A stretch of DNA of 64,000 nucleotides from assembly GCF_000934725.1 (NCBI RefSeq), contig NZ_JYNS01000001.1, positions 744,001 to 808,000 on the forward strand. Direction: 5' to 3'. The notes beneath the pieces are model-generated. The model was not told the origin of the DNA, did no database searches, and saw only the letters and a program-made list of their open reading frames with translations. The translations under genes were made by a program, and so were the position numbers. Positions within the stretch are counted from its first letter, which is position 1; each line of letters opens with the position of its first letter. The DNA is from Methyloterricola oryzae (GTDB lineage Bacteria > Pseudomonadota > Gammaproteobacteria > Methylococcales > Methylococcaceae). Shown piece by piece: positions 58,447 through 64,000 of the stretch.

Positions 58447-59535
58447 TCAAAATGCGTTCAGTGCGGTTTTGTGGGCCTCCAAGTGGCGTTCGGTCAGCGA
58501 TGGAGCAGGCTTTGGGCCTTGGGGGCGAAAGCGCGCGCGGTAATCCTGTGGATTGATGCCGATATTGCGCAAAAAGGCCCTGCGCATGCGCTCCTGATCT
58601 CCGAAACCAGCCATCACGGCAATGCTGTCGATGCGATGGTCGGTGGAACCGAGGAGATGCCGGGCCGCGTCGACCCGCGCCTTCTCCACGAACTTGGCCG
58701 GTGTCATCCCGGTTTCTTCCTGGAACACCCGGGCAAAATTGCGGGTGCTCATGGCCATGTGCTCGGCCAGGATCTCGATGCGCAGATCCTCGGCGGGGTT
58801 TTCCATGATCCAAATCTGCAATTTGCGCAGGTCCTGGTTCTTGGTGGCTTCGCTCACCAGATAGCCGCTGAACTGGGATTGTCCGCCGGGGCGTTTGAGG
58901 AACATCACCAGGTAGCGGGCAACGTTCAGTGCCTGCTCCTGGCCCCAGTCCTCTTCCACCAGGGACAACGCGAGATCGATGCCGGAGGTGATGCCGCCCG
59001 ATGTCGAGATGGGCGCGTCGCGGACGAAGATCCGATCGGGCTCGACCTTGATCAAGGGGTAGTCGGCGGTCAGCCGATCGCAGTAAGCCCAATGTGTGGT
59101 GGCGCAGCGGCCGTCCAGCAAGCCGGTCTTGGCCAGGAGGAAGGCGCCGGTGCAGACCGAGACCAGACGCCGCACCCGCGAGGACATGTAGAGCACCCAG
59201 GCCATCAGGTCCGGGTCGGCCAGGATTGCGTTGACGTCGGGAGAGCCCGGCATGATGAGGGTGTCGATGTCGCCGTTGACTTCACCGTAGGCCCCATCGG
59301 CGTGAATCCTGAGGCCACAGGAGGCGGTGACAGGGCCCGCCTGTTTGGCCAGCACCCGGATGTTGTAGACCGGTTCGGTAGACAGCCCCGCCATCTGCCT
59401 GCCCAGATTGGTGAAGGAGAACACCTCCATGGGACCGGTGAGGTCGATGATCTCGACACCATCGAAGGCGACGATGGCGACATTCCTCACCCGGTGGGGA
59501 AACAACTCCGCGTGCGATTCTGGCTTTCGGACCAT
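58447..59535 (-). CDS. GlxA-family AraC-type transcriptional regulator
   Basis: The 362-residue regulator has an N-terminal DJ-1/PfpI-like domain (about 18-190), with the nucleophile-elbow cysteine in LVSVCTGAFLLAKTG, and a C-terminal AraC/XylS DNA-binding region of two helix-turn-helix motifs (about 240-330, IEILAEHMAMSTRNFARVF). Family members sense small metabolites; the effector here is unknown. ATG 59533-59535 has GGAGAGGTGG upstream. It is read in the same direction as hypX, which begins 55 bases downstream, so it may regulate or be cotranscribed with hypX. Confidence 0.88.
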   Translation of the reverse strand: MVRKPESHAELFPHRVRNVAIVAFDGVEIIDLTGPMEVFSFTNLGRQMAGLSTEPVYNIRVLAKQAGPVTASCGLRIHADGAYGEVNGDIDTLIMPGSPDVNAILADPDLMAWVLYMSSRVRRLVSVCTGAFLLAKTGLLDGRCATTHWAYCDRLTADYPLIKVEPDRIFVRDAPISTSGGITSGIDLALSLVEEDWGQEQALNVARYLVMFLKRPGGQSQFSGYLVSEATKNQDLRKLQIWIMENPAEDLRIEILAEHMAMSTRNFARVFQEETGMTPAKFVEKARVDAARHLLGSTDHRIDSIAVMAGFGDQERMRRAFLRNIGINPQDYRARFRPQGPKPAPSLTERHLEAHKTALNAF

Positions 59536-59822
59536 GGCAATACCACCTCTCCTGATCGGTTGCTCCACGCCACCTTCTGATGGCTCCGCCCTGCGCCCAG
59601 CCTGGCCAAGCCTGCGGGGGGGCAAGCCCCTCGCATTGCCTGCGCCAGATCGGTGCAAAATGGGGATGAGTGACATGCTCGCGCCAAGTTGGCGCGGGCA
59701 CAATGACAATCTGCCCTCTTTTTCTGCCAAACCGATCGGACACACATGAGGACATTACCTTTGGGTCGTTTCCGGACTGTCAGGACAAAGCCTCGGAAAT
59801 CGCGGCAAAGGGCACTGAACGT

Positions 59823-60707
59823 CTAAAGCTGACGCAAAGCCCCTCGCGCCAACTCAAGGATCCGGTCTGTCAGGATCTGCCTGGCGCTGGTCTTGCGCCA
59901 GACCAGCCCGACAATGCGCCGCGGGGCGGGTTCGGTGAAGGGCAGGTAGCGGATCTCCGGATCGTCGGAGCGGGCGGCGATTCGGGGCATCAGGGTGAGG
60001 CCGCTGCCCGCCTTGACCATCATGCGCAGGGTTTCCAGGCTGGTGGCACGAAAATCCGCTTCTTCATGACCGCCGTGCTGGTAACACACATCCAGAGCCT
60101 GATCCCGCAGGCAATGGCCTTCATCCAATAGCAGCAGCTTCACCTGGCGCAATTCGGCCGGGTCAATCTGCGCGCGGCCTGCCCACGGATGGGTGGCTGG
60201 AAGCGCCAGCAGGAAAGGATCCTCGAAGATCTTCATCGCCACCAGCGCCGGGTCGTTCACCGGCAGCGCCAGCAGGGCCGCATCGCACTGGCCCGCCTTG
60301 AGACGCTCCACCAGGACGTCGGTCTTCTCTTCCACCAGGAGCAGCTTCAGCTTGGGCAGAGCCCGGCTTATCTCCGGCACCAGGCAGGGAAAGACATAGC
60401 TGGCCAGGGTGGGAAACGCACCCAGGCGGAAGCTTCCGGCCAGCGGGTCGCGGGAGCTCTCGGCGATGGTCTTGATCAGGTCCACCTCGCCCAGGATGCG
60501 CCGGCTCGCCTCCAGGATACGCTCGCCCGGCTCGGTCAGGCGCACCGAGCGGTTGCTGCGTTCGAACAGCGTGACGCCCAGTTCTTCCTCCAGTTTCTTG
60601 ATCTGCATGCTGAGGGTGGGCTGGCTGACGAAGCAGGCTTCGGCCGCCTGACTGAAGTTCTTCAGGTCGGCGACGGTCACTAGATATCGAATATCCCGAA
60701 GATTCAT
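59823..60707 (-). CDS. oxyR: Hydrogen peroxide-sensing LysR-type regulator
   Basis: The 294-residue protein has the LysR winged-helix N-terminus (MNLRDIRYLVTVADLKNFSQAA, quoted in part below 20 residues elsewhere) and the OxyR redox site DEGHCLRDQALDVC. The two sensor cysteines fall at residues 199 and 208, the same numbering as in E. coli, and FRATSLETLRMMV follows as usual. Oxidation to a disulfide switches the tetramer to its activating form. It is divergently transcribed from a small secreted-protein gene, and a near-consensus OxyR operator lies in the 169-base gap. Confidence 0.95.
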   Translation of the reverse strand: MNLRDIRYLVTVADLKNFSQAAEACFVSQPTLSMQIKKLEEELGVTLFERSNRSVRLTEPGERILEASRRILGEVDLIKTIAESSRDPLAGSFRLGAFPTLASYVFPCLVPEISRALPKLKLLLVEEKTDVLVERLKAGQCDAALLALPVNDPALVAMKIFEDPFLLALPATHPWAGRAQIDPAELRQVKLLLLDEGHCLRDQALDVCYQHGGHEEADFRATSLETLRMMVKAGSGLTLMPRIAARSDDPEIRYLPFTEPAPRRIVGLVWRKTSARQILTDRILELARGALRQL

Positions 60708-60743
60708 GACGGCTCAGGCTGGGCGTTGGCGAGGCCATTAATT

Positions 60744-60780
60744 ATAGATATGGTCGATTATAAAAATAAGAACAAACGAT
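60744..60780. promoter_or_regulatory. Candidate OxyR operator
   Basis: The sequence has the OxyR consensus layout of four tetranucleotides with seven-base spacers: ATAG (60744-60747), CGAT (60755-60758), ATAA (60766-60769) and CGAT (60777-60780), against ATAG-N7-CTAT-N7-ATAG-N7-CTAT. That is 13 of 16 positions with exact spacing. It lies 37 bases from the oxyR start and about 97 bases from the start of the divergent gene, so it could serve both oxyR autoregulation and activation of the small gene. Confidence 0.6.
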
Positions 60781-60876
60781 TTTATTTATTTATGCAAGCA
60801 CCCCAGACTATCTCCCAAGCCAGACGGCCGACCGGACTGGCTGATCCATCAACCCGATACCAACAGGAGCACGACC

Positions 60877-61188
60877 ATGAACACTTCGATCCGTCACATC
60901 ATCACCGCCGCCGCTATCGTTAGCGCTTCCGCCACGGGCAATGCCTGGGCCCACGGGGCGCAGGACGCCGGCATGCACCCCATCGCAGATGCGGCCATCG
61001 TCTACAACAACACGGCCTATGCCCAGACCCAATCCAGCCCGCCCCAAACGGCAAGCGCCGGCGAAGCCGCCACCGTCCTCGTGCTCTATGTGGACCAGGC
61101 CCACGGCCCGGCCATATACAGCTACCCAGGCCGCGCGGAAGTGCAGGCCATTGAAAGCTGCGCCGCGCCGCGCTGGGTGGTCCAATGA
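60877..61188 (+). CDS. Small secreted protein divergent from oxyR
   Basis: The 103-residue product has a typical signal peptide with a likely cleavage after AWA at residue 25, giving a mature protein of about 78 residues. It starts at ATG 60877 with AGGAG upstream. The mature part begins HGAQDAGMHP and has one cysteine; its middle is Gln/Ser/Ala-rich. I do not recognise the family. The position opposite oxyR with a shared candidate operator suggests peroxide-linked expression. Its TGA overlaps the ATG of a second small frame (61185-61346). Confidence 0.7.
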   Translation: MNTSIRHIITAAAIVSASATGNAWAHGAQDAGMHPIADAAIVYNNTAYAQTQSSPPQTASAGEAATVLVLYVDQAHGPAIYSYPGRAEVQAIESCAAPRWVVQ

Positions 61189-61346
61189 CCGGCGTGGAGA
61201 TTGGCATGCTGGCCGAGATGACCGCCACACTGGCCTTCTCCCTCGGGTATTGCCTGCGCTTCGACCACCGCATGGAGCGATTGCAGGCCGAGTCGGGCAA
61301 CGCGTCTGAACCGGTCAGTCCAGGGAGGATGGATGCCAATACGTAG
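61185..61346 (+). CDS. Translationally coupled 53-residue protein
   Basis: This frame starts at the ATG in an ATGA overlap with the stop of the preceding gene and ends at TAG 61344-61346. It has no ribosome-binding site of its own beyond the coupling context. The product MTGVEIGMLAEM... has one moderately hydrophobic segment (about 13-24) with a cysteine and a polar C-terminal half; no signal peptide is clear. The four-base overlap is the best evidence that it is real; a short chance frame cannot be excluded. Confidence 0.45.
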   Translation: MTGVEIGMLAEMTATLAFSLGYCLRFDHRMERLQAESGNASEPVSPGRMDANT

Positions 61347-61536: not shown

Positions 61537-64000
61537 ATGAACGTTCCCGCCAAGAGCCAATGGACCGTCAGCGCCAGCAGCGGCGATGCCCGCGCCGCCA
61601 TCGACGACGCCTATTCCACCCACTGGGCCTGTGCGCCAGGCGCGGACTCCTGGCTGGTTATCGACCTGGGCCAAGCCGCGACCCTGGGCGGTATCGAGAT
61701 CTACTGGGGCCGGTTGTTCGCGGACGTCTACACCATCGAATCCTCGCTGGACGGCCAGGCCTGGTCGCCGCTGTGCGCCACCGCCTATGGGGAGGGCGGT
61801 CAGAATGTGTTCGCCTTTCCGCCCGCTGAAGCCCGCTACCTGCGCTGGCGCGGGGCCAACAAGTCCCAGGACAAGGGCGTGGAGATCGTGGAGATCAATG
61901 TTTACGGTCCCGAGAACGCCGCCAAGGTGTTGGAGCCGGGACGCATCGCCGCCTTGGGCCATGGCGCGGTGCGTATCCCCACGGGCGAGAGCCTGACCGT
62001 GGATTTCGGCTATGTGCGCTCGCCCTTGGGCGTTCTGGTGAAATGGGGGGCGGACTACGGCAAGCACTTTTCCGTGCACCTGTCCGACGACGGCGAGACC
62101 TTCCGGGAGGTCGGCCGCATCGACACGGGCAACGGGGATTACGACAACTTCTACTGGCGCATCACCACCAGCCGTTACCTGCGCTTCAGCGTGCACCAGG
62201 CCAGCAGCCCGGAGGGCGTCGTGATCGAGGAACTCAAGCTGCGCATCCTCAACAAGGACCGCATGCCCATCGGCCAACTGGAGCGGGCGGCACAGGCCGC
62301 GCGCGCCGACCTCTATCCCCAGTCCTTGCTGGCCCGCCAACTTTACTGGACCGTTCTGGGTGAATGGGACCACCCGGAAGAGGCCCTGTTCGACGAATAC
62401 GGCAACCTGGAGCCGCAGATGGGCTCGGCCCAGATCATGCCCCTGCTGCGGCTGGACGGCGCCTTGCACGGCGCGGCGGGGGCAGAGGACCTGGCCCAGA
62501 GCCTGGCCGAAGGTTCCCTGCCGATCCCCTCGGTCGCCTGGTCGCAGTCCGGGCTTGCGCTCACTTCGACGGCCCTGGCGCGCGGCGGCGCCGCATTCGT
62601 GGAACACCGGCTGAGCAATCCCACGTCGCGGCATCTTTCGGGCTCCCTGGTCCTGGCCCTGCGCCCGGTGCAGATCAATCCCTACTGGCAGCACGGCGGC
62701 CACGCCCCGGTCAATGCCATCGAGGTGGAGGGGCGGCAGATCCGGGTCAATGGGCGCCCTTTCGCGGCCCTGTCCCGCGCCCCGGACAGCCTGACGGTCT
62801 GCGATTTCGACCAGGGCGATGTGGTCAGCCAGATCGCGCAAGGCCCGCTGCCGACAGGGGCCAGCCTGCAATCGATGTCCGGTCTGGTGAGCGCCGCCTT
62901 CGAGTTCGCATTCGAACTAGCGCCCGGCGATAGCACGTCGGTCGTCGTGGCGGCGGCCCTGCGCGAGGGCGTTACGCTCGATGCCGCGGTCGACTTCCCG
63001 TCCCTCAAGGCGGCGACCCTCTCCGCCTGGCGCGAGAAGATCGGCCCGCGCCGGATCAGCGTCGGCGACCTCGAAGTCAGCGACACGGTGGAGGCCCAGA
63101 CAGGCCTGATCCTGGTGAACGCCACGCGGCACGCCTTCAAGCCAGGGCCGCGCAATTACGACCGGGTCTGGATCCGCGACGGTTCATCCCAGGCGCTGGC
63201 CCTCCTCTACGCCGGCCTGATCGAGGAAGCCAAGACCTATGCGGCCTGGTATGCGGAGCGGGTCTATCCCAACGGCATGGTGCCGCCTATCCTCAACCCG
63301 GACGGCACGGTCAACCGCGGCTATGGCAGCGATATCGAATTCGACGCCCAGGGGCAGTTGGTGGACATGGTCGCCGACATCTACCGCATCAGCGGCGACC
63401 AGGATTTCCTGCGCGCGGTCTACGAACCCGTGCTGCGCGCCACCCGCTTCATCGAGGAACTGGTCGCCCGCACCAACGCCATCCATGAACCGGAAAGCCG
63501 CTTCTATGGCCTGCTGGCGCCTTCCATCAGCCATGAGGGCTACAACAAGCCCACCTACAGCTACTGGGACGATTTCTTTGCCTTGAGCGCCTACCGCAAT
63601 GCGGCCTGGCTGGCGAGGGAACTGGGCGATGAGGCCACCGCCGCCGAGATGGAAGCCAAGGGCAAGGACTTCGCCGCCAACCTGGCGCGCTCCATGCGCC
63701 TGACCGCCGAGCGACGGGGGCTGGGCCTGGTGCCCGCCTCCGCGGACCGCGATGACGTCGACCCCACCTCCACCTCCATCGTGTTCGAACTCCTGCGGGT
63801 GGACGACGTGCTGCCCGCCGAGTGCATAGGGCCTACCTACGACATGTACCGCGAACACCTGGAAGTGATCCGCAAGCCCGATTTCAAGGGTGGCTTCACC
63901 CCTTACGAGATCCGCAACCTGAATGCCTTCGTGGCCCTGGGCCGGTTGGAGGATGCCTACGGACTATTAACGGATTCCCTGAGCTGGCGTCGCCCGCCCG
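61537..64000 (+). CDS. Large six-hairpin glycosidase-like protein, 3' end beyond window
   Basis: The frame opens at ATG 61537 and has no stop before the window ends (821 codons visible). The N-terminal 130 residues resemble an F5/8-type-C (discoidin) carbohydrate-binding module (SWLVIDLGQAATLGGIEIYW, at the 20-residue limit), and a second similar module seems to follow at about 150-245 (YDNFYWRITTSRYLRFSV). From about 520 on, NYDRVWIRDGSSQALALLYAG, quoted here in part, and repeated helical segments fit an (alpha/alpha)6-barrel glycosidase such as an amylo-alpha-1,6-glucosidase-like enzyme. No signal peptide is visible. The substrate cannot be assigned. Confidence 0.75.
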   Translation, partial: MNVPAKSQWTVSASSGDARAAIDDAYSTHWACAPGADSWLVIDLGQAATLGGIEIYWGRLFADVYTIESSLDGQAWSPLCATAYGEGGQNVFAFPPAEARYLRWRGANKSQDKGVEIVEINVYGPENAAKVLEPGRIAALGHGAVRIPTGESLTVDFGYVRSPLGVLVKWGADYGKHFSVHLSDDGETFREVGRIDTGNGDYDNFYWRITTSRYLRFSVHQASSPEGVVIEELKLRILNKDRMPIGQLERAAQAARADLYPQSLLARQLYWTVLGEWDHPEEALFDEYGNLEPQMGSAQIMPLLRLDGALHGAAGAEDLAQSLAEGSLPIPSVAWSQSGLALTSTALARGGAAFVEHRLSNPTSRHLSGSLVLALRPVQINPYWQHGGHAPVNAIEVEGRQIRVNGRPFAALSRAPDSLTVCDFDQGDVVSQIAQGPLPTGASLQSMSGLVSAAFEFAFELAPGDSTSVVVAAALREGVTLDAAVDFPSLKAATLSAWREKIGPRRISVGDLEVSDTVEAQTGLILVNATRHAFKPGPRNYDRVWIRDGSSQALALLYAGLIEEAKTYAAWYAERVYPNGMVPPILNPDGTVNRGYGSDIEFDAQGQLVDMVADIYRISGDQDFLRAVYEPVLRATRFIEELVARTNAIHEPESRFYGLLAPSISHEGYNKPTYSYWDDFFALSAYRNAAWLARELGDEATAAEMEAKGKDFAANLARSMRLTAERRGLGLVPASADRDDVDPTSTSIVFELLRVDDVLPAECIGPTYDMYREHLEVIRKPDFKGGFTPYEIRNLNAFVALGRLEDAYGLLTDSLSWRRPP

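Follow-up and report, generated by a model that had tools for sequence, protein, structure and literature searches.

The window, the whole 64,000-nucleotide stretch of Methyloterricola oryzae DNA that was analysed, carries an oxyR gene on the reverse strand (59823-60707) and, divergent from it, an open reading frame of 103 amino acids on the forward strand (60877-61188), both at the positions given in the preliminary description. Between oxyR and the gene for this predicted exported protein sits a candidate OxyR operator (60744-60780). The 103-aa frame overlaps by ATGA with a second frame of 53 amino acids on the same strand (61185-61346), whose end is also the upper limit of the region first described. 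Downstream of oxyR and on its strand lies a gene for an AraC-type regulator with a DJ-1/PfpI domain by Pfam (58447-59745), and a further frame at 61537-63999, which runs past the window end, encodes F5/8 type C (discoidin) domains and has a weak six-hairpin glycosidase match.

The oxyR product, 294 residues long, was assigned by Pfam, NCBIfam and structure alignment. It belongs to the LysR family, with the LysR helix-turn-helix (PF00126, 1.4e-24) and the LysR substrate domain (PF03466, 9.3e-48), and it could be aligned with two OxyR proteins of known structure, 4x6g and 1i6a. The pair of redox cysteines, C199 and C208 in E. coli numbering, is kept, with GHCLRDQALDVC of the window protein lining up with GHCLRDQAMGFC of the E. 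coli OxyR in 1i6a. OxyR PRK11151 was the top of 57 NCBIfam models at 298.6 bits, below its equivalog cut-off of 329, a threshold that picks out near equivalogs of E. coli OxyR and is no defining biochemical feature; the operator evidence set out below argues for OxyR.

An OxyR-spaced set of tetranucleotides had been proposed for the intergenic region, and it was found exactly at 60744-60780 on the forward strand. Here ATAG-N7-CGAT-N7-ATAA-N7-CGAT agrees with the consensus ATAG-N7-CTAT-N7-ATAG-N7-CTAT at 13 of 16 positions, and the four tetranucleotides at 7-nt spacing 5' of a putative promoter are a feature of OxyR-regulon membership. Chance would yield 0.02 sites with as few as three mismatches per 64-kb window, and in a scan of the whole 4.9-Mb genome this was the sole site with three or fewer. 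As the backwards control pattern, run at equal stringency with both strands counted, also found two sites in the genome, the score by itself is suggestive and no proof, and the motif score as sole proof of an OxyR site was rejected. OxyR sites that have been verified by experiment in P. aeruginosa score 12-13 of 16 (PMC5720770), and the window site matches the consensus as well as they do.

The promoter was read with the help of relatives of the 103-aa protein. A probable -10 hexamer, CAGACT (60804-60809, forward strand), lies at a distance from the operator that is constant among these relatives, which have TATAGT, CAGAAT or CACAAT just 5' of a conserved CCAAGCC. This CCAAGCC is the probable transcription start and is followed by a 5'-end hairpin, AGCCAG...CTGGCT, the two together spanning 60815-60842 on the forward strand, as judged from the spacing and hairpin in relatives. 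Each of the 28 family members with an operator has CCAAGCC 33-35 nt after the operator end and, since a -10-like hexamer precedes CCAAGCC, the operator would adjoin the expected -35 position, which is the geometry of an OxyR-activated promoter. The hairpin is found at the 5' end of most leaders, with a mean z of -1.3, and may stabilise the transcript; its paired letters vary between species.

A ribosome binding site, AGGAG, is recognisable in the sequence at 60865-60869 (forward strand), ahead of the 103-aa gene. The protein starts with what was judged by eye to be a Sec signal peptide (SASATGNAWA-HG), which supports the earlier suggestion that the product is exported. That it belongs to no known family also stands, with no match to the window protein in Pfam or NCBIfam and none above the Pfam cut-off for five of its relatives. 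AlphaFold gave no confident fold for two alignments of the family (pLDDT 51 and 46), a result in keeping with flexibility of the repeat protein or with limited depth of the alignment.

The 53-aa product is a small single-TM protein, predicted as the second gene of a putative operon and recognised by its homology to a 49-aa protein. In two other genomes, G006 and G016, the gene for this 49-aa homologue is found by itself downstream of this operator, facing away from oxyR, and the relative of the 103-aa gene is found with its own operator on a different contig. As the 49-aa gene is alone there, two predicted OxyR-controlled modules appear to be joined in the window genome and to lie apart in these two. 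Tiny single-TM proteins of 35-50 residues with the pattern MTxVEIxL...SxGxC recur across Methylococcales (L169-L185), mostly without the operator.

The family of the 103-aa protein has no name in the libraries searched and is here given the working name YSYP; the target family is thus new, and the kind of regulation is known. Its members are small and predicted to be exported, and they share YV[DNS]xA[YHS]GxAIYSYP in one to three imperfect repeats; in the window protein, the first repeat is degenerate and one copy, VLYVDQAHGPAIYSYP, is intact. The first relatives came from a search of related genomes with the 103-aa protein. Used as query against around 85,000 species genomes, the family alignment returned 20 loci, all in Methylococcales (Methylomonas, Methylobacter, Methylovulum, Methyloglobulus, Methylocaldum and further members of the order); queried with only the window protein, a set of named genomes gave no match. 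By kinship the window genome falls in the same taxonomic family as Methylocaldum. Within the order, 53 of 301 genomes have YSYP, and a class-wide draw of 369 genomes found it in two only, both Methylococcales. No plasmid record matched. A second YSYP copy in the window genome has no operator. No description of the YSYP family or of a methanotroph OxyR operator was found in the literature searched, which covered few subscription papers.

Among 56 distinct YSYP proteins, 28 have an operator scoring 12-14 of 16 within 300 nt upstream and the remainder score 11 or less. In all 28 the spacings of the four tetranucleotides are kept, and the start codon follows the operator at 118-207 nt. The common form, with few departures, is ATWG-N7-CTAT-N7-ATAA-AAACAAT-CRAT-TTTATTTAT. 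Across 21 non-redundant sites, the tetranucleotide columns average 1.63 bits, spacers 1 and 2 average 0.66 and the third spacer 1.71. The preliminary description had made its reading depend on conservation of the tetranucleotides among relatives carrying both genes, and the reading came through; this degree of conservation 5' of half of the relatives is well beyond chance. Peroxide control would not be the sole role of the family, given that half of its members, the second copy of the window genome included, lack the operator. Another operator of perfect pattern with the TTTATTTAT flank was seen near a contig end in G290 (L160:201-237).

The distribution of the operator also follows that of OxyR, which was present at E<=1e-60 in all 29 operator-bearing genomes as against 9 of 24 genomes with an operator-less YSYP. 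The Fisher p of 2e-7 for this co-occurrence ignores kinship, and the cases are not phylogenetically independent. On the gene tree the association is mostly that of one clade, with three changes of operator state in all, so that it does not amount to 53 independent cases; paired contrasts number two to three independent ones, and the sign test is not significant. Within the operator clade the sole decayed operator (L060) belongs to G098, in which no close match to OxyR was found.

Viewed from the side of oxyR, the motif lies 5' of the gene at 20 of 39 oxyR loci and is always oriented to the divergent gene. At these 20 loci the divergent genes encode seven peroxiredoxins, three catalases, one peroxidase, two YSYP proteins, two small TM proteins and five DUF815 proteins. 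A search among relatives for the divergent pair, as had been suggested, turned up a second case with operator in G143 beside that of the window, and oxyR adjoins a YSYP gene at five loci in divergent, tandem and convergent arrangements. In Methylovulum the motif precedes a gene pair for a peroxiredoxin and a disulphide reductase. The five DUF815 cases are all from Methylomonas (L107, L108, L115, L118 and L120), where the OxyR-type site beside oxyR faces the ATPase gene at 250-350 nt with no evident gene between them; the gap possibly holds a small RNA or an unannotated gene. In the window genome (G000), a search found no PF00199 catalase, nor did 12 peroxiredoxin-family loci show a strong OxyR motif nearby, and so the YSYP promoter may be the only strong OxyR target of this genome.

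Because the same motif precedes both the YSYP relatives and the catalase and peroxiredoxin genes of sister species, the YSYP gene is read as OxyR-controlled, and the 103-aa gene is predicted to belong to the methanotroph OxyR regulon, with a probability that we put at roughly 0.8. The idea of a new regulon member, first raised in the preliminary description, thus gains support from comparative sequence evidence, namely the conservation of the site, its co-occurrence with OxyR and its place before catalase, peroxidase and peroxiredoxin genes.

Other explanations of the site were weighed against this one. It lies 5' of oxyR, 36 bp from the start codon, which is where autoregulatory sites of LysR-type proteins are classically placed, and the motif is found 5' of about half of the oxyR genes (20/39); it could therefore serve oxyR only, the divergent small gene being no target. 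This is improbable, however, as the operator also accompanies the YSYP gene in genomes that have oxyR at another location (Methylovulum, Methylomonas and others), stands at a fixed distance from that gene's own conserved start region and, when beside oxyR, always has its asymmetric motif oriented to the divergent gene. Use of the site by some other LysR-type regulator was judged very improbable: T-N11-A dyads are common to LysR-family sites, each genome has many LysR proteins and two motif matches adjoin other LysR genes (L152 and L162), but beside oxyR the motif precedes genes for catalase, peroxidase and peroxiredoxin, and no operator-bearing genome lacked OxyR (29/29). As to the 103-aa frame itself, it is short, of no known family and on a long tree branch, as a non-coding frame might be, yet such a reading is scarcely credible with the motif and start conserved in 53 genomes, a ribosome site present and the signal-peptide start conserved.

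A different question is what the YSYP protein does, and here the gene neighbourhoods offer a rival to a role in the envelope. A kinase gene lies near a YSYP member at 8 of 47 loci and a response-regulator gene at 8, seven of them shared, in at least six genera, and the second YSYP copy of the window genome is among them. The neighbours are a large membrane-bound hybrid histidine kinase and/or a REC-LuxR regulator (L021, L027, L050, L052, L054, L056, L195 and L196), and at L057 the REC-LuxR regulator only. YSYP proteins could then be secreted signals or accessory sensor proteins for the kinase and its LuxR-type regulator, and OxyR control would feed in peroxide stress; small periplasmic proteins such as CpxP are known to feed back on kinases and provide a precedent. 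This proposal is compatible with membership of the OxyR regulon and competes only with the suggestion of envelope protection taken up below. It seems unlikely, if still worth entertaining, since neither the window copy nor most of the copies with an operator have such a kinase beside them, the N-terminal membrane part of the kinase (around 500 residues) has no Pfam match and the adjacency could instead mean that the regulator controls the YSYP gene. The same N-terminal part has a cysteine cluster, CSIC...CSLCC...C. MxaY/MxaB, the lanthanide switch of Methylotuvimicrobium buryatense (PMC5018670), resembles these loci in having a histidine kinase and a response regulator in the same methanotroph order; identity of the neighbouring kinase with it was not supported, and no methanol dehydrogenase genes were noticed at the loci.

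Set beside the OxyR regulon of gammaproteobacteria (katG and ahpC in E. coli; katB, ahpB, ahpCF and phnW in P. aeruginosa), the window has the same elements: an OxyR with two redox cysteines, a four-tetranucleotide operator with 7-nt spacers next to the -35 and a gene divergent from oxyR. It differs in the target, a predicted exported, non-enzymatic repeat protein of a Methylococcales family, and in that conservation upstream of the YSYP genes extends to the third spacer, AAACAAT, and to the 5' leader. Small, exported, stress-regulated accessory proteins of the periplasm are known in CpxP, Spy and ZraP, which are sometimes encoded beside a two-component system and are controlled by CpxR, BaeR and ZraR. 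YSYP, likened to them in general character only, is similar in size, predicted export, presumed stress regulation and occasional two-component neighbours, and unlike them it would answer to OxyR and has Tyr-rich repeats and no predicted fold.

In the mechanism we propose, cytoplasmic peroxide would oxidise OxyR through a switch of the C199-C208 type, and the oxidised protein, bound at 60744-60780 directly 5' of a poor promoter, would activate rightward transcription. The resulting mRNA would span both small genes and carry a hairpin in its leader, and it would give rise to the Sec-exported, tyrosine-repeat YSYP protein, destined for the periplasm or cell surface, and to the 53-aa single-TM protein. 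As the YSYP gene stands opposite oxyR where other Methylococcales have a gene for catalase, peroxidase or peroxiredoxin, it is regarded as a probable part of the peroxide defence regulon. Our leading guess on its function, a tentative one with the odds against it, is a protective or remodelling role in the envelope during oxidant stress, in which tyrosines exposed on the protein would serve as sites of oxidation or cross-linking. A more speculative and rather doubtful idea is that the exported tyrosine-repeat peptides (YGxAIYSYP units), produced together with a tiny membrane partner, are a non-enzymatic peroxide defence peculiar to methanotrophs. They would quench oxidants or form dityrosine cross-links as a material of the envelope, or be processed into a peptide ligand of an adjacent membrane-bound hybrid kinase, and would take the place of catalase in the oxyR-divergent slot.

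The control of oxidative stress in methanotrophs is nearly uncharted, and a methanotroph transcriptome paper noted that the regulators involved remain unclear (PMC6373157). The present analysis gives a concrete predicted model of the OxyR operator for Methylococcales together with a list of predicted targets, among them a lineage-specific, predicted exported family with a testable inducer. With a YSYP gene in the slot of catalase and peroxiredoxin genes, and no PF00199 catalase in the window genome, the possibility that this family represents a new form of peroxide protection is directly open to test.
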